From contig NZ_SNUU01000001.1 in NCBI RefSeq assembly GCF_012027645.1, positions 1,736,001 to 1,800,000 on the forward strand: 64,000 nt of DNA, given 5' to 3'. This document shows positions 4,699-58,510 of this stretch, piece after piece; within the stretch, counting starts at the first letter, position 1; each line of letters starts with the position of its first letter. This stretch comes from Thermococcus sp. 18S1 (lineage in GTDB: Archaea > Methanobacteriota_B > Thermococci > Thermococcales > Thermococcaceae). The notes beneath the pieces were generated by a model, which was not told where the DNA came from, made no database searches, and saw only the letters and a program-made list of their open reading frames with translations. The position numbers and the translations under genes were made by a program.

Positions 4699-5775
4699 AT
4701 GGGCCTTTACTTTCACAGAAAGGGAGAGACGGGACAAAAACTGTGGAACTCAATTGTAACCGGAGTCAGGGAAGGCAGTCTTAACTTGGACCTCTATCTG
4801 AACAAATACCTTCTCATGGACGGGACGAAAATACACACGGGGAGCCCGTCCCAGGCAAAGGTAGCAGCAATGGAGCTTCTCCGGAACATTAGAAGATTCG
4901 GTATAAATACCCGCCTTACCAAAGGGGAGGGTGCCCCTCAAGTTCCAATAGGCCAAAAGGTCATCGAAGAGTATCGCCGTTATCACAAACTGCACTCAAA
5001 GCTGGCGGAGATTACGTTTGACCTTAAGACAACCTCAAGACTCGTTGTGGGCCTCGACGAGGGTGGGACGTACGAGACGGGCATAACCCTGCTCAGGAAC
5101 TACGGGGTCCCGTACATTCCGGGAACAGCCCTGAAGGGCGTTGCCAAGCACTATGCTGTTGAGAAGCTCGTGAAGAGCCACTGGTTCAAAAACGGGAAGT
5201 TTCGGGAGGAACTCTTTGATGGCATTTTTGAGGAGGAAACCGAAAGGCTGGCCGGCAAATACAGAAAGGATGGAAAGAAGTTCAACGAGGACGTCTACGG
5301 AGCTATGGAGGTTACGATGCTGGCACTTGAAGAGGAATCGAACGAAGAAAAAGGAGAACCACCAAAGGAATTTCTCAACTGGGAGATATCCTTGAACGGT
5401 GAGACCATAACGGTTTCAGAGCTGAGGAAAATCTTCGGAACCAAGGCTAAAGAGGGAAGCGTCGTGTTCCTCGATGCTCTCCCAGACCCCAATAACCTAG
5501 AGAACATCCTCGAATGGGACATAATGAATCCCCATTACAGCCCGTACTACCAGAGGAACGAGGTTCCCGGGGACTGGCACAACCCCACCCCGATAAAGTT
5601 CCTTGTCGTGAAGCCCGACGTTAGGTTTCTCTTCAGACTGAGGAAAGCCAAGACCTGCACTGGAAACTGTGATGGCCTTTTAACGAAGGCAGAGGCACTC
5701 CTGATGGAGGCACTTAAAAACCACGGCGTTGGGGCCAAGACTGCCCTCGGCTACGGGCGCTTCGACGTTCCTTGA
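4699..5775 (+). CDS. cmr6: Cmr6, type III-B Cas7-like head subunit
   Basis: RAMP protein at the head of the Cmr complex near the crRNA 3' end. It shows the family segments SRLVVGLDEGGTYETGITL and VPYIPGTALKGVAKHYA, and the C-terminal glycine loop GVGAKTALGYGRF. The start at ATG 4699 has GGGGGT seven bases upstream; ATG 4678 in the same frame overlaps cmr5 and is the alternative (7 more residues). Length 358. It is the last gene of the cmr operon; an AT-rich leader and the CRISPR array follow. Confidence 0.93.
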   Translation: MGLYFHRKGETGQKLWNSIVTGVREGSLNLDLYLNKYLLMDGTKIHTGSPSQAKVAAMELLRNIRRFGINTRLTKGEGAPQVPIGQKVIEEYRRYHKLHSKLAEITFDLKTTSRLVVGLDEGGTYETGITLLRNYGVPYIPGTALKGVAKHYAVEKLVKSHWFKNGKFREELFDGIFEEETERLAGKYRKDGKKFNEDVYGAMEVTMLALEEESNEEKGEPPKEFLNWEISLNGETITVSELRKIFGTKAKEGSVVFLDALPDPNNLENILEWDIMNPHYSPYYQRNEVPGDWHNPTPIKFLVVKPDVRFLFRLRKAKTCTGNCDGLLTKAEALLMEALKNHGVGAKTALGYGRFDVP

Positions 5776-6448
5776 GGTTTTCCATCAATTTTTCCATAAT
5801 GCTCGCATCGACGAAACCTCAGCGTTGTTGCTTTGCCCTTTGTAACTTTTTCTGGTTGTAACTATTTTAGTTGGATCCCGATTATGGATATTTAAGTTTG
5901 GGCCCGTTTTTGAATTTTGAGGTTCTCTTGGTTTAGACTTTTTTATAAAGTAAAGCGCTGGCTCTCCAGAGATTGTAAAATTTTGGGAATTTTGAAAAAC
6001 GCTTTTAAGAACTGTTTTAAAGCAAAAAAGAGCTTTAAGGGCGTTTTTAGTCTCGTTAATCTTTTTTCTTCGAGTTTTAAAATCCAAGCGTTGGGGTTCC
6101 TTTTTCAGGTTTTTAAAGGCTTTTCCGGGAATCCCGATTACGGATTCTTGATATTCAAGCTGTTTTTGAAGTTTGGAGTTGCTCCCCTCTGAACTTTTGT
6201 TCGTCGTAAGGCGCTTGACTAAAGGCGATGTTAACACCTGCGGGAGGACTTCTTCCAGCGGTTTGAGGGATTTAACGGGTGTTATAGAGCGGAGGGGCAG
6301 TTGTTTTTCTCTGTTTTTTCTGGCGCGTTTCTTTCTTTCGGCATGGCTGTTTCAACGTCTCCTGGATTGAATTCGTCTCTCGTGAGCGCAACGTTTTTAA
6401 GGGGTTGTTTCCTATTTCTATTTGCCTCGGAAAGCTTCCTGAGGTATG
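5776..6448 (+). promoter_or_regulatory. AT-rich CRISPR leader, about 670 bp
   Basis: Non-coding stretch between cmr6 and the first repeat. It is far poorer in GC than its surroundings (19 of 60 bases at 5941-6000) and full of TTTTAA and AAAA runs. Its position upstream of the intact end of the array, opposite the decayed terminal repeat, identifies it as the leader. It contains an imperfect internal duplication: 5875-5925 and 6131-6183 share ATCCCGATTAYGGAT followed by GTTTTTGAA-type text. A 150-codon Lys-rich open frame on the minus strand here is low complexity and not accepted as a gene. Confidence 0.75.
6388..6405 (+). promoter_or_regulatory. Probable array promoter (TATA)
   Basis: GTTTTTAA at 6393-6400 is a Thermococcales-type TATA box. 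A start site about 25 bases downstream (near 6424) would place the precursor crRNA start about 25 bases before the first repeat. This is inferred from spacing only. Confidence 0.5.
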
Positions 6449-7122
6449 GTTTACGCAGAACATAGTTGTCTAGAAACCAATCTGAATATTATAAACTTCA
6501 ACGTCCTCCACCGTTTACGCAGAACATAGTTGTCTAGAAACATCACCCTCACCGTCAAAGCCCTCGAAGGGAACAAAACAAAGTTTACGCAGAACATAGT
6601 TGTCTAGAAACTTCTGACTTCCTTGAGGATCCTCCCACGACCCCCTTTTCCTAGGTTTACGCAGAACATAGTTGTCTAGAAACCCGCAACTCCTCCAAAA
6701 CCTTCCGCTCATAATACCTCCTATCAAAGTTTACGCAGAACATAGTTGTCTAGAAACGCGTACCGGTGCCACCTCACTATCTGCCACACGATGTTCATAG
6801 TTTACGCAGAACATAGTTGTCTAGAAACTTCTTGAGCGATCTTCAAAGTGCTTAGTGCGGTCAGAGCTGTAGCGTTTACGCAGAACATAGTTGTCTAGAA
6901 ACGTCCCCTGAGTTAGAGGTGGCCTTTATCTCAAAGCTTCTTCCAGAGGGTTTACGCAGAACATAGTTGTCTAGAAACTTGGAATCGCGGCTTTGAGGAT
7001 CTTCTCCCGAAGGCTAGCTTTCGTTTACGCAGAACATAGTTGTCTAGAAACTGAGGAGCATGTGGAATCTATTCCTGAACCCTTCCCCCTCTCGTTTACG
7101 CAGAACATAGTTGTCCGGGGTT
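6449..7122 (+). CRISPR. CRISPR array, 29-bp repeat, 9 spacers
   Basis: Repeats start at 6449, 6513, 6583, 6655, 6729, 6800, 6874, 6950, 7023 and 7094. The first nine are identical 29-mers (GTTTACGCAGAACATAG then TTGTCTAGAAAC). The tenth keeps only the first 22 bases (7094-7115) and then diverges, marking the leader-distal end. Spacer lengths are 35, 41, 43, 45, 42, 45, 47, 44 and 42 bases. The repeat ends in GAAAC, so transcription on the + strand would give crRNAs with the usual 8-nt repeat-derived 5' tag after Cas6 cutting. No cas6, cas1 or cas2 is in the window. Confidence 0.98.
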
Positions 7123-37899: not shown

Positions 37900-38969
37900 T
37901 TTGATTTCCTCCCGCCTCTTGCCGCCACGATAGAGCCTAGGAAAATCAAAGACCCCCAGAACGCGTACTTCCACGGCGTTTTAGCCTTTGAGAACGGCAC
38001 CTCTCCCACTCCCTGAAACTCAGCGTTGGTATCGTAGAGCGGTAGCAAACCGGCCCATGAAAGGTCCTTCTCCACCATCTGGTCGTAGGCAACACGTTCG
38101 TCCATGAAAGATGCAAAGGGGATTCCTATGGCGGCAAAGTCAGGGGATATCAGTATTGAGATAGTAGTGGGAGATAATACCACTCCCGTGGTGGGGTCAT
38201 AGCACAAGTCCCCCGGAGTCTGGGTGGTGAACTCCACAAGACCCTCCATGACAAGTGGTGGTCCCAGGAGAGACAGCATGGCAGTGGGCGGCCCAAATTC
38301 TCCGTAGTATGTTTTCGTGGGTTTATCCCTCACGGACACCTTCTCGACTTTCATCGTCCAGTTCTGGGTGGGAAAAACCACGAAGGTCTCGTTCTCCTGC
38401 GGGACCAGACCGGGATCGGTATCAATCCAGAGGAAAGTGTGACCATAGTGGGTTCCGTTCGGGCTGAAAACGGCACCATCGCTCTCACGTATTCTGTAAA
38501 CACCCTCAATCCTGAGGGAACGGAGGTACACCTTGTATTCACGGGTACCGGAATTGCTCGGGGTTGGTATGGTTTCAACTTTTATGACCTCGTTTTGTTC
38601 CCAAATCGGGCTTAGGTTCTCTCCAGTTGGGACGGTGACTTTAACCGTTACGTTGCTCATGTCAATACGGACGCCGACTGTTAGATAACCGTCAGTCTCC
38701 TCCAGAATAGTGAACTTGAGGTAAGTGTCGTTGTACGCGTAGATTTTGTAGGAAGCGTTGTGGAAAAGGTAAACAAGAAACGCAGTCCTTTGCTCGGTTG
38801 AGTACTCCTGGGAGAGCTGATACTGGATATATGGGTCGTACCTCATAGCCGCGTACTCAACGTAGACTCCAGGCTTGGCCCAGTAAGGCTTCGCACTTGA
38901 GAAGGGGAGGGACGTAATCATCAACAACGTGATTACAAGCACAATAAATTTGGCACCATTTAGTTTCAT
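37896..38969 (-). CDS. Ectodomain paralogue A (YWAKPGVY family)
   Basis: First paralogue, 357 residues. Signal peptide (KFIVLVITLLMITSLPFS), KPYWAKPGVYVEYAAMRYDP, the shared HYGHTFLWIDTD and LYDTNAEFQGVGEV, a C-terminal span (YAFWGSLIFLGSIVAA) and a basic RGGRKSK tail. The three copies arose by tandem duplication but have diverged widely between the common motifs. GGAGGGTATTACA precedes the ATG. It lies 16 bases after the interrupted small secreted gene and heads the run of overlapping genes that ends with the ABC ATPase. Confidence 0.82.
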   Translation of the reverse strand: MKLNGAKFIVLVITLLMITSLPFSSAKPYWAKPGVYVEYAAMRYDPYIQYQLSQEYSTEQRTAFLVYLFHNASYKIYAYNDTYLKFTILEETDGYLTVGVRIDMSNVTVKVTVPTGENLSPIWEQNEVIKVETIPTPSNSGTREYKVYLRSLRIEGVYRIRESDGAVFSPNGTHYGHTFLWIDTDPGLVPQENETFVVFPTQNWTMKVEKVSVRDKPTKTYYGEFGPPTAMLSLLGPPLVMEGLVEFTTQTPGDLCYDPTTGVVLSPTTISILISPDFAAIGIPFASFMDERVAYDQMVEKDLSWAGLLPLYDTNAEFQGVGEVPFSKAKTPWKYAFWGSLIFLGSIVAARGGRKSK

Positions 38970-38985
38970 TGTAATACCCTCCGTG

Positions 38986-39195
38986 TTATGTGAGTCCTCC
39001 TGTTCCTATCCTGTAGGTTATCTCATAGTTGGTTCTGGGATTCTGGACGTCGTACTTGACTCCGACCTCCGCATAGGCCTAGCCGTACTTTATGGAGGTG
39101 TAGTCATGCACCTCTGTAACAGCCCAAGTCGTCGCTGCCGCGAATCCTGCCGCCACTACCAGCAGGCCGAACAACACGGCAACCAGCTTCTTCAT
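38986..39195 (-). pseudogene. Small secreted protein with in-frame TAG
   Basis: A 69-codon frame encodes a signal peptide (MKKLVAVLFGLLVVAAGFAA) and then TTWAVTEVHDYTSIKYG. TAG follows at codon 39 (39081-39079), and the frame continues AYAEVGVKYDVQNP to TAA at 38986. The part after TAG is open for 30 codons and ends just before the ribosome site of the next gene, so a single nonsense change (for example TAC to TAG) is the simplest reading. Either a 38-residue secreted peptide or an interrupted 69-residue one results. There is no sign of pyrrolysine genes in the window. Likely the first gene of the ABC operon. Confidence 0.6.
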
Positions 39196-39468
39196 GGTGC
39201 CGACCCTCCTGCCCGAGGGGCAGTCAATACGCCCAACCGGGCGATCGATAATACCTTTAACTAATATTTAACTTTTACTTCGAAGTTAAGGTGCAGATTT
39301 CAAAAAAAAATCGACCATGCTGAACATAGAAGAGGCATGGTGCAAATAAGGGAGCGAATTACTTCAAGTTAATAACCAGGTTATGCTAGAATTGCCGAAG
39401 TTATTTAACAAAATGTTTCACCCTTATGGAAAAATTTCGGCCTCCAAAAATGATGAATGGGTATCGAA
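39196..39468. other. Intergenic region with promoter and inverted repeats
   Basis: AT-rich stretch upstream of the small secreted gene. On the minus strand GTTAAATATTAGTT (near 39255-39268) is a possible TATA region, and ACTTCGAAGT (near 39275-39290) is a palindrome beside it, placed like an operator. Further right, ACCATGC and GCATGGT (about 39313-39341) form a stem with a 15-base loop. No gene seen. Confidence 0.45.
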
Positions 39469-39492
39469 TTTCGAACCTTCAGCTCCACGTCT
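39469..39492. repeat. Left 24-bp direct repeat (att-like)
   Basis: Identical to 39990-40013. Read on the minus strand it carries the last codons and stop of mptA plus 10 bases beyond. It lies just past the toxin gene. Together the two copies enclose about 500 bp that holds only a toxin-antitoxin pair. Confidence 0.85.
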
Positions 39493-39496
39493 TCTT

Positions 39497-39772
39497 CTAT
39501 AGGTCATCCCCGTAAACGTTCTCCCTCTTGCCGACTTTTAGGATTTTGACAACTCTATCTTCCTTCAGGTACTCGAAGATTACTCGATACTGTCCAACGC
39601 GTAGGCGGTAAACGTTCCCATATCCCTTGAGCTTTTGGACGTCTAGGTGGGCCAGAGGAAAGAAGACAAGCTTTGAGATCCTGTCCTTTATCATGTTTCT
39701 CTCGTTTTGAGGGATTCCTCGAAGTTCTTTCAGGGCTTTTTTGCTTATCAGAACCCTGTTCTCAAAGCTCAT
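39497..39772 (-). CDS. RelE/ParE-type toxin
   Basis: Toxin of 91 residues with the RelE fold: ALKELRGIPQNERNMIKDRI helix, then LKGYGNVYRLRVGQYRVIFE and RVVKILKVGKRENVY. The R-X-R/Y pattern in the last strands fits a ribosome-dependent mRNA interferase. The ATG lies within the antitoxin 3' end (11-base overlap), the usual antitoxin-first order. It ends 4 bases before the left direct repeat. Confidence 0.9.
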   Translation of the reverse strand: MSFENRVLISKKALKELRGIPQNERNMIKDRISKLVFFPLAHLDVQKLKGYGNVYRLRVGQYRVIFEYLKEDRVVKILKVGKRENVYGDDL

Positions 39773-39947
39773 CTTTCACCACGTCCCATTCGAGGAACTC
39801 GTCAGTTCTGCGCTCCTCGATGGCTTCTCTCTCCCACTTTTCCGGTTCAGACTCCTCAATGAGCTGAAGGTTAACATCCACGAGCTCCTTCAGAAACCGT
39901 TCTATCTCCTCTATCCGGTGGATAATCTCGCTGAGAGTGGCCTCCAT
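39762..39947 (-). CDS. Antitoxin partner of the RelE-type toxin
   Basis: Acidic helical protein of 61 residues (IIHRIEEIERFLKELVDVNL, then EREAIEERRTDEFLEWDV). No DNA-binding domain is obvious, as in several archaeal RelB-type antitoxins. GAGGTGAGAGA precedes the ATG. It overlaps the toxin start by 11 bases. Confidence 0.85.
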   Translation of the reverse strand: MEATLSEIIHRIEEIERFLKELVDVNLQLIEESEPEKWEREAIEERRTDEFLEWDVVKDEL

Positions 39948-39989
39948 TCTCTCACCTCGGGTATTGTTAGGGATTCAAATAATTAAAAT

Positions 39990-40013
39990 TTTCGAACCTT
40001 CAGCTCCACGTCT
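39990..40013. repeat. Right 24-bp direct repeat (mptA 3' end)
   Basis: Exact copy of 39469-39492 (T-run, then CGAACCTTCAGCTCCACG, then TCT). Here it overlaps the end of mptA: codons for the last four residues, stop TGA at 40002-40000, and 10 bases downstream. This is the intact gene-associated copy. Confidence 0.85.
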
Positions 40014-55624: not shown

Positions 55625-58510
55625 ATGGTGAAAACAGAGATTAAGGAAAAGCGGAAGAAGAAAAAGGAGGAAAAGACCTCCTCCTTTGGAAAATACTACC
55701 CGATGTTTAAGAGCTACGGCCTTCCGCTGATAGCACTCCTGCTCGCGTATCTGGGCTTCAAACTGAGGAACATAACCTCGAACTACAAGACCTTCCTCGA
55801 CCCGGATACGTTCTTTCACTACGAAATGTACAGACAGGCCATAACCGAGTGGATTCCCCAGTATTTCGCCTACGCCGATCCACCCGCGGGAATAAAGGCC
55901 ACTGGCTACCTGGGACTCTACACAGTCCAGGCCGCTTTCTACAAGATAGTCCACGCCATCTCCGGCACCGACGTGCTTGGGGCTTTCAAGCTCTGGCCTC
56001 CGTTCGTTGGAGCAATGACCATTATAGCGGTCTATTTCCTCGGAAAGAAGCTCCACTCCAACTGGGCGGGCATCTGGGGAGCAGCCTTTATGATGTTCTC
56101 CTACGCCAACTTCACCAAGACCATGTCAGGAAACAACCGTGGTGAAGGCCCGTTCATGATGTTCTTCCTCTACGCGGTGCTTTTCCTCCTGATGTACCTC
56201 GATGAGAAGGAGTGGAACTGGAAGAAGGTAGCGGGAGGGGTCCTCTTCCTCATAACGAGCGTCCTCTACATGGGAGTCTGGACGGGTAGTGTATTCGGTA
56301 TTGAGATCTTGCTTGCATTTGCATTCCTTACTGTAACAGTGGCATTTATCGCTGGGCTCGAGAAGTTTACAATAAAGTTCATCAAGGAATTCGTGCCAAT
56401 ACAGGGACTTGCTATAGTCTTAGGGATCATTATTGCCAGAACCGGCTTTATTGGCATCGGAACATTTCTCCTTAAAAGACCATTTGGATTAATGGGGATA
56501 TTTGCGGTTTTAGTTTATGCAGGGCTACTCATAGGGCTAAAGCGCCTCTTGCATTTTGATTATTCAAGACTAGATCACCGGATTGGGGCACTTCTAATAT
56601 CTGGAGGAGTACTTGTCCTATTTGCTGGGGCATGGGGCCTACTTAATATTTCGACCTTAATAAGAGGCGCTTATCAATCCACTCCCCTCTATCAAACCGT
56701 CGCAGAGCTGGCAAGGACGGATATAAACACTATCAAGGCATACTACAGCATAAAGAGCAAGGACATGTTACTGTTCCTCTTATCGATCGCAGGTTTTCTG
56801 ATAGTACTAGCCAAATTCATCAGCAACCTCCTGAAAGGGAATGTTTCAGGCTACAAAAATGCATTCCTCGTATCATACTACATCAGTTCAGTGGTCCTCC
56901 TATCTTTGGCTGTTCGTTTCGTGTTCCAGGCTTCGGGAGCCATACTCCTCCTGGCGGGCGTTGCAATTGGTGAGGCGTTCCTCTTCGTGGAGAACATGAA
57001 GGAGAGCACCACGACCAAGGCCCTCTATGCAATCCTGCTGATAATCATGTTCCTCCCGCTCCCAATAATCGGTGCACAGTACAGCAAGGCCCTCGCGACG
57101 AACACCGCCAAGGCTCAGGGTTCTGTGCCCGCGGACTGGATAAACACCCTCAACTGGCTCAACGAGAACACCAACGAGCTCGACAGCGCCACGAGCTGGT
57201 GGGACTACGGCTACTGGATCGAGTCGAGCCTGCTCGGTAACAGACGTTCCGCCACGGACGGCGGTCACGCATACGACAGGCGCTACATAGTCGCGGACTT
57301 CTTCTCACACTACGGCAACGAGAGCGAGCAGGACTTCGAGGCCTGGGAGCTTAACTACATGATAGTCTGGCAGCAGGACATATACAAGTTCAACGCCATA
57401 AGCTACCTCGGCGGTGCGATAAACTACTACGAATACAGTCACATCCCAATGTTCCAGGTCGTGCCAATGCAGTACGTTAAGTACACCAACGAGAGCGGAA
57501 AAACGGTTGTCTACCTTAAGACAGCCGAGGGCGACAGGCAACCGGTGATGACAGTTGATCTGGCCAGAGGGCAGGTTATCCAGGGCAGGGGGGACATTCC
57601 GTACGTCCTCTACCTCTTCGGCAACTACGGCATTCTGGCGTACCACAAGATAGCCTTCAGCAACTTCGTCAGGCTCGCGTTCCACATCCCGTACTCCTTC
57701 GAGCCGTGGGACGCTCAGAAGCTCTTCGCCAACTTCAAGCCGGTCCACAATGACGGTGGTGTCTCAACCTACGAGTTCAGGCCGTTCGCCGTGTACAGGA
57801 TCGATAAGTACGAGAACGGCACCTGGAAGGCCTTTTACAGCACCACGGGAGGAGGAAATCTCCCGCTCGGAGAGCAGAAGCTCAGGCTCTGGATTTCTGC
57901 CTTCGGCAGGGACGTCAAGGACGCGACCCTGATCTTCGAGGCCTACAACGGAACAGAGCTCATCAAGAGGGAGACCCTCGCAGAGGGCCTCAGCATAAAC
58001 CACCTCAACGAGACCCCCGTGGAGGTCAGCCTCTTTGTCCCGAACGCTACCAGCTACCGCTTCGTCCTTATTCAGGACGGCCCGGTTGGAGTGCTCAACG
58101 GCGAGCCGAGGGTAAACGGAGAGGTCGCCAATCCAAGCTACCTCCTGGATGAGGGTCAGAGCGGTAACCTCGAACTTGTGGCGGCCTTTAGGAAGGACTA
58201 CAGCAATGTGCAGCTTGCACTCAGGGCGAGCATAGTTTACTACGTTGCTCCCAACGGCAAGGACATAGAAAAGGACAACTTCTACCTCGAGCCCCACCAG
58301 GATATCATAACCTACGTCCCGGTCAAGGAACTGAGCGTCAAGGCCGGCGACAACGTGATAACGGCGCAGGCATCGATGCCGTCCGATGTGTTCAGTGCGT
58401 ACATCGAGAAGCTCTACCAGAAGTACGGCGAGGACAAGGTCGTTATAGTCAAGAAGCGTGTGGAGCCGGTGTTCATAACGAAGAAGGAGTACGTAATCTG
58501 GGAGGGCTGA
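55625..58510 (+). CDS. aglB: Oligosaccharyltransferase AglB
   Basis: Transfers lipid-linked glycan to Asn in N-X-S/T sites on the outer membrane face. Length 961. A basic cytoplasmic start (KRKKKKEEK) precedes the first span. DPDTFFHYEMYR holds the first metal-binding DxD-type motif, and GNNRGEGPF follows in the next loop. WWDYGYW starts the soluble domain, which contains the sequon-binding site. Bases about 56285-56920 (residues about 221-432, membrane helices) are much richer in AT than the rest, 33-52% GC per 60-base line against 63% at 57181-57240. This suggests replacement by recombination. ATG 55625 follows GAGGTGATCCGG. Confidence 0.96.
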   Translation: MVKTEIKEKRKKKKEEKTSSFGKYYPMFKSYGLPLIALLLAYLGFKLRNITSNYKTFLDPDTFFHYEMYRQAITEWIPQYFAYADPPAGIKATGYLGLYTVQAAFYKIVHAISGTDVLGAFKLWPPFVGAMTIIAVYFLGKKLHSNWAGIWGAAFMMFSYANFTKTMSGNNRGEGPFMMFFLYAVLFLLMYLDEKEWNWKKVAGGVLFLITSVLYMGVWTGSVFGIEILLAFAFLTVTVAFIAGLEKFTIKFIKEFVPIQGLAIVLGIIIARTGFIGIGTFLLKRPFGLMGIFAVLVYAGLLIGLKRLLHFDYSRLDHRIGALLISGGVLVLFAGAWGLLNISTLIRGAYQSTPLYQTVAELARTDINTIKAYYSIKSKDMLLFLLSIAGFLIVLAKFISNLLKGNVSGYKNAFLVSYYISSVVLLSLAVRFVFQASGAILLLAGVAIGEAFLFVENMKESTTTKALYAILLIIMFLPLPIIGAQYSKALATNTAKAQGSVPADWINTLNWLNENTNELDSATSWWDYGYWIESSLLGNRRSATDGGHAYDRRYIVADFFSHYGNESEQDFEAWELNYMIVWQQDIYKFNAISYLGGAINYYEYSHIPMFQVVPMQYVKYTNESGKTVVYLKTAEGDRQPVMTVDLARGQVIQGRGDIPYVLYLFGNYGILAYHKIAFSNFVRLAFHIPYSFEPWDAQKLFANFKPVHNDGGVSTYEFRPFAVYRIDKYENGTWKAFYSTTGGGNLPLGEQKLRLWISAFGRDVKDATLIFEAYNGTELIKRETLAEGLSINHLNETPVEVSLFVPNATSYRFVLIQDGPVGVLNGEPRVNGEVANPSYLLDEGQSGNLELVAAFRKDYSNVQLALRASIVYYVAPNGKDIEKDNFYLEPHQDIITYVPVKELSVKAGDNVITAQASMPSDVFSAYIEKLYQKYGEDKVVIVKKRVEPVFITKKEYVIWEG

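Follow-up and report, generated by a model that had tools for sequence, protein, structure and literature searches.

The aglB gene of Thermococcus sp. 18S1, as it stands in the 64,000-nucleotide stretch of DNA analysed here (the window), is in all probability a mosaic assembled by homologous recombination between Thermococcus lineages, and within it one block would represent one of several segment types that cross species borders and would correspond to the part of the enzyme that admits its lipid-linked donor. The block has sharp edges, gives trees discordant with those of its flanks, is low in GC3 in both genomes that carry it, and leaves the reading frame intact and the catalytic TVAE motif in place. 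The first-pass annotation had proposed recombination with a divergent aglB; recombination as such is strongly supported by the sharp edges, by reciprocal rejection in AU tests and by the occurrence of the same segment in G017, which is not the sister genome, while the view of the segment as foreign to this gene is only half borne out. Throughout, G000 denotes the genome carrying the window and G034 its sister genome. The features are collected in the table.

Table. Features of aglB in the window (positions are those of the window; aa and codon numbers are those of the encoded protein)
Feature	Position	Strand	Basis
Predicted aglB-L, oligosaccharyltransferase, 961 aa, intact frame	55625..58510	+	Pfam, Pyrococcus AglB domains, fold matches, ORF list
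Milder second discordant block in EL1, codons 61-100	55805..55924	+	Two 20-codon windows at 72 and 63% nt identity to G034; median 95
Left anchor, codons 171-219	56135..56281	+	10-codon windows at 93-100% nt identity to G034; codons 205-219 identical as displayed
Probable recombinant block, codons 220-430, low GC3, predicted TM6-TM11 and EL5	56282..56914	+	Identity edges, trees, GC3 and codons, background rank
Predicted TM6, aa 224-242	56294..56350	+	AlphaFold2 model, helix counting
Predicted TM8 (aa 289-308) and TM9 (aa 316-336), expected donor entry gate	56489..56632	+	Model; role by analogy with A. fulgidus AglB (passages of PMC8342417)
Predicted EL5 loop, aa 337-381	56633..56767	+	AlphaFold2 model; A. 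fulgidus EL5 is 331-374 (passages of PMC8342417)
TVAE, TIXE-type catalytic motif, aa 358-361, kept inside the block	56696..56707	+	Alignment; T358, V359 and E361 do not vary among 46 sequences
Predicted TM11, aa 409-428, the block's final helix	56849..56908	+	AlphaFold2 model
Right anchor, codons 431-460	56915..57004	+	97-100% nt identity to G034; starts at invariant Arg431-Phe432

Sequence and model both suggest that the frame encodes an oligosaccharyltransferase of the AglB-L type. Pfam OST_P1, OST_P2 and OST_IS all match it, the first two far above cut-off, as do the solved domains of Pyrococcus AglB, and its named relatives in public collections are Thermococcus. An AlphaFold2 model (mean pLDDT 82.3, pTM 0.77) can be superposed on A. 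fulgidus AglB as well as on the STT3 proteins of yeast and human, and the 13 membrane helices of the STT3/AglB fold are present in the model and in its alignments to 7e9s, 3waj and 8agb. Compared to A. fulgidus AglB with dolichol-phosphate (PDB 7e9s), the fold is the same (Z 28.8, rmsd 4.9, 604 residues aligned), although only 14% of residues are identical in the structural alignment. The active-site signatures can be assigned as WWDYG at W525-W526-D527-Y528-G529, invariant in the alignment; the DXD motif of EL1 at D59-P60-D61, with D59 and D61 invariant in 46 sequences; and the TIXE/SVSE-type motif of EL5 as TVAE, with V replacing I. In the passages of PMC8342417 that we draw upon, A. fulgidus has TIAE in place of TVAE, with its EL5 motif at nearly equal residue numbers, and DGGK in place of the DGGH found here at 545-548. 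TVAE has the same letters in the displayed 10-genus relatives, the exception being the g4/g5-type sequences with TVQE. Matches to aglB were present in 91 of the 94 family genomes, and 70 of those 91 were aligned; the remainder were mostly split or partial genes, together with some genomes of genera g3/g4, and the segment itself was scored in all genomes.

An AT-rich segment at 56285-56920 with codons unlike its neighbours, lying within one intact frame, had been recognized at first pass, and each part of that description proved sound. GC over these positions is 272/636 (0.428), as compared to 0.523 upstream (55625-56284) and 0.565 downstream (56921-58507); the four hand counts of GC (20/60, 25/60, 24/60 and 38/60) were exact on recount; synonymous codon usage differs (chi-square 147.7, df 32, p = 8.6e-17); the ORF list confirms the frame; and the edges fall within 6 bases of those defined by alignment. 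GC1 and GC2 are nearly level across segment and flanks while GC3 drops to 0.440 in the segment from 0.745 and 0.800 on either side; the dip is therefore synonymous. Seventeen codons of the segment are TTA, TTG or CTA, and the flanks have none of these.

Two other readings could be suggested by the hydrophobicity of the segment (mean Kyte-Doolittle 1.08) and by the presence of two short aglB genes in the genome: that membrane helices bias its composition, or that it was converted from these paralogues. However, 52 equally hydrophobic 209-codon windows elsewhere in 400 kb of the genome hold a GC3 near 0.75 (0.748 +/- 0.054, minimum 0.627), so membrane helices are not the cause of the dip, and the short aglB genes match the segment at chance level only (E 3.7 or worse). 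Both ideas are refuted by these comparisons, and the chance that either is correct is negligible. A GC3 of 0.43 or less was seen in 5/896 windows of any kind outside aglB; low-GC3 stretches in this genome are rare, not unique. Elsewhere in the window, 5501-7000 and 38501-40000 are also AT-rich (GC about 0.44 and 0.46 per kb), the former having no dominating long clean frame.

In the three core 40-codon windows the nearest relatives are without the dip (GC3 82, 77 and 80 in G034; 85, 83 and 82 in G014; 67, 66 and 77 in G016), G017 has it (50, 35 and 32), and G070/G071 show a milder one (47-52). Identity to the sister genome breaks at the same place: G000 and G034 share 92.8% of nucleotides upstream, 49.8% in the block and 93.0% downstream, and 84% of 4-fold sites in the flanks versus 32% in the block. 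As displayed, G034 is also identical to the window over codons 430-442 at the right edge, and between the two identical stretches mismatch is immediate. The block of G017, in contrast, is 92% identical to that of G000 in amino acids; next come G058 at 59% and the rest at 48% or below, except for a partial match of 54% in G036. Relatives of the segment were sought in viral contigs and in plasmids, and none were found in either. An assembly chimera is unlikely because G017, an independent genome, has the same segment.

This distribution is at odds with the genomes' descent. Core genes are 89.5% identical in nucleotides between G000 and G017 versus 97.5% between G000 and G034, and the core tree, built from rpoB and EF-2 for 15 genomes (EF-2 missing for G061), places G000 beside G034 with G017 outside their group; these two genes replaced three first-choice genes present in only 6, 14 and 11 of the 15 genomes. 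Fast divergence in place, through relaxed constraint on membrane helices in this lineage, would find some encouragement in the observation that mean identity across the block stays lower than average when G000, G017, G058 and G018 are set aside (61-77% in 40-codon windows). It is nevertheless very improbable: the G000-G017 split is older than that between G000 and G034, yet the two are 92% identical in the block, the edges are abrupt and synonymous composition is shifted too. We consider it refuted by the G017 comparison.

The trees of the gene itself tell a similar story of discordance. Among 32 sequences, AU tests rejected the flank tree for the block (p-AU 1.7e-8) and, conversely, the tree of the block for the flanks (9.6e-38), and in the block tree G000, G017 and G058 group together on a long branch. 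The first-pass annotation would have been contradicted by a single shared tree or by the same GC dip in all relatives, and neither was found. We note that among 133 orthologous genes compared between 400 kb of G000 and 400 kb of G034, aglB ranks first both for its internal identity dip (0.45, the next being 0.26) and for a dip in GC3 that lies inside the gene with flanks to either side (0.28, the next being 0.21).

Where the block came from is a separate matter. A search for a donor lineage with a near-identical segment gave G017 as its best match (92% in amino acids, 88% in nucleotides) and yielded no donor: divergence between G000 and G017 is about the same in the block as in core genes (88.0 and 89.5% of nucleotides; 64.6 and 64.9% of 4-fold sites), so that a recent acquisition of the block directly from G017 is rejected. 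Instead, the block appears to be an old segment type that is shared between species. At 65% identity, the blocks of the tight group formed by G000, G034, G014, G016, G023 and G040 sort into three types: that of the window; one in G034/G014, clustering with G039, G026, G041 and G029; and one in G016/G023/G040, clustering with a large group. Three types inside one tight group indicate that block types cross species borders. At a looser cut of 55% the G034/G014 and G016/G023/G040 types merge and that of the window stays apart. Similar conflicts between segment and flanks recur elsewhere: G038 and G047 are 94% identical in codons 241-350 versus 78% in the flanks, G039 and G041 are 100% identical in the segment and 94% in the flanks, and G039 and G026 are 88% identical in the segment and 98% in the flanks.

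The low GC3 of the block in both of its carriers points to a low-GC origin. Alternatively, the low-GC3 segment might be ancestral to G000 and G017, with G034, G014 and G016/G023/G040 having replaced theirs, so that the block in the window would be an old resident and G034 and its kin may be the changed parties instead of G000. The equal divergence of block and core genes and the two further block types among close kin are as this would predict; it requires several replacements in the close kin of G000, however, and the low GC3 should meanwhile have relaxed in two high-GC3 hosts. We give it a real but somewhat less than even chance. The description of the segment as foreign therefore needs qualification: it is discordant and of a divergent type, but the G000-G017 divergence within it is close to that of core genes, and it may be the older state of the clade.

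The mosaic reading extends beyond the block. N-flank and C-flank trees also reject each other in AU tests, so the whole of aglB is mosaic and the block its extreme case. Dips in identity of more than 15 points among 27 close pairs, which share history so that the counts are descriptive, occur in 39/297 windows of codons 221-440, 29/918 of the rest and 8/81 of EL1 (G051, cut at one end, was excluded from pair counts and trees). In 15/27 close pairs one or more dips lie outside both the block and EL1, and together with the conflict between the two flanks this shows that mosaicism is not confined to the block. Leaving out G000, G017, G058 and G018, agreement with the rest of the gene is poorest in EL1 (r of 0.30 and 0.46) and across codons 221-360 (r of 0.42-0.60), and the C-terminal codons 821-860 (r 0.43) are as discordant as the block.

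Several local observations may be added here. EL1, the site of the second discordant block, is the other loop that builds the active site and is also the least congruent stretch across the genus. Between G000 and G034 there is a third dip at codons 621-660 (57485-57604; 63 and 68% of nucleotides), and over codons 601-680 G000 is nearer to G016 (92-95% in amino acids) than to G034 (75%), which makes this another mosaic block, in the C-terminal domain. In G018 (L126), aglB has about 60 extra residues in frame at reference codon 375, at the end of EL5, with two hydrophobic stretches and a GC3 of 15-35% per 20 codons, a second and different low-GC anomaly at the donor loop. Extra residues relative to the gene in the window also lie in EL5 before TM10 in G014 (L088), G058 (L096) and G020 (L122), so the length of this loop varies.

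As predicted by the model, in which TM7 (246-271) and TM10 (382-403) complete the set when helices are counted from the total of 13, the block would comprise TM6 to TM11 together with EL5. The first-pass annotation had it covering membrane helices after the first catalytic loops, which is right as to the helices and too narrow, since EL5 with the catalytic TVAE is included as well. By analogy with published structures, the block would hold nearly all of the donor-side membrane elements while the EL1 motif and the acceptor domain lie outside it. In the passages of PMC8342417 considered here, the dolichol end in A. fulgidus AglB lies in a TM8/TM9 tunnel that is proposed as the donor entry, the first half of EL5 becomes ordered upon donor binding, and Arg426 is near the phosphate; Arg431, just past the right edge of the block, is by position the likely counterpart of the latter. 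According to the part of PMC7226087 consulted, the donor pocket of yeast Stt3 is lined by helices 6, 8 and 11. That exchange of the block alters the choice of lipid donor would fit these structures.

On the other hand, such exchange may not matter for donor choice. No critical residue emerged when the donor-side half of A. fulgidus EL5 was scanned with alanine, as far as described in the passages of PMC8342417, and AglB is described in parts of PMC5131992 and PMC5867893 as complementing across species with different glycans, so the donor specificity of AglB may be loose. Recombination might then be neutral and proceed all along aglB, the block being visible only through a distant donor and donor recognition being unaffected. 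The mosaic flanks agree with this, as does the cross-species complementation; the greater density of dips in codons 221-440 and the coincidence of the block with the donor-side helices argue against it, and we hold it to be possible, although doubtful.

With regard to the glycans themselves, two short aglB genes flank a variable glycan region (L265-L267, G000 C1 827-870 kb), in which most genes at 858-868 kb have a GC3 of 0.35-0.42. The island beside one of these genes (G000 C1 857-870 kb) is mostly low in GC3 (0.35-0.42 over its core) and encodes a flippase, a GT4, a UDP-sugar dehydrogenase, a GT2, a Gfo/Idh protein, a DegT protein and an acyltransferase. The nearest match to the GT2 is in G017 (62%), followed by G075 and G019 (54%) and G063 (51%, partial), with 41% or less elsewhere and 33% in G034; for the GT4 it is in G037 (67%) and then G017 (62%). 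Gfo/Idh was found in 35/94 genomes, best in G038 (77%) and G017 (76%); it is below threshold in G034, G014, G016 and G023, and G040 has it at 69%. In a comparison that covered 54 kb of G017 but just 20 kb per genome for nine others, the neighbouring genes for Gfo/Idh (75%), DegT (91%) and the acyltransferase (89%) were found in G017 and in 0/9 of the others. Because G037 and G038 have a block of another type and G058 has none of the three island genes GT2, GT4 and Gfo/Idh at the thresholds used, the association between island and segment type is suggestive only.

Recombination within aglB is known from Haloferax, where the passages of PMC5867893 consulted describe two RDP events in one clade, one of them with an outside lineage, and where the authors tie it to surface variety. 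The gene is the same and the recombination is likewise internal, but these passages are without positions or structural meaning, whereas the block in the window is sharply bounded, belongs to a distant type, contrasts in GC3 and coincides with the donor-side helices. In Halorubrum lacusprofundi strains aglB lies in a variable glycosylation region of raised divergence that is read as surface variation in the part of PMC6011602 seen; there a region of about 37 kb differs as a whole, as compared to a block of 0.6 kb inside a gene with conserved flanks. The open-access literature searched yielded no account of aglB mosaics in Thermococcales, nor of any exchange of a donor gate.

We propose that the conserved stretches up to codon 219 and from codon 430 would give the crossover sites. 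The block between them would provide the lipid-linked oligosaccharide with its pocket, tunnel and entry gate, as in known oligosaccharyltransferases, and the metal-binding motif in EL1 and the C-terminal domain that binds the acceptor would remain native. A swap would then alter the enzyme's choice among lipid-linked glycans, or its efficiency with them. We speculate that swaps might be favoured when surface-glycan genes are exchanged, and that the low-GC glycan island by the second aglB, partly common to G017, might belong to the same history. A bolder form of this proposal, which we offer tentatively and think unlikely, is that TM6-TM11/EL5 forms an exchangeable donor-gate cassette whose types predate the species, are kept under diversifying selection on surface glycans and, reshuffled along with glycan islands by homologous recombination, refit the conserved enzyme body to new lipid-linked glycans.

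If the block sets donor choice, it would represent a natural version of the glycoengineers' domain swap, in which the gate for the lipid-linked glycan is replaced while the catalytic and acceptor parts are kept, and a case of archaeal membrane-enzyme segment types that predate the species carrying them. It would likewise provide a single-gene marker of surface-glycan type in Thermococcales. The natural chimeras make the location of AglB donor specificity directly testable, and by swapping this block cells may retune their surface sugars.
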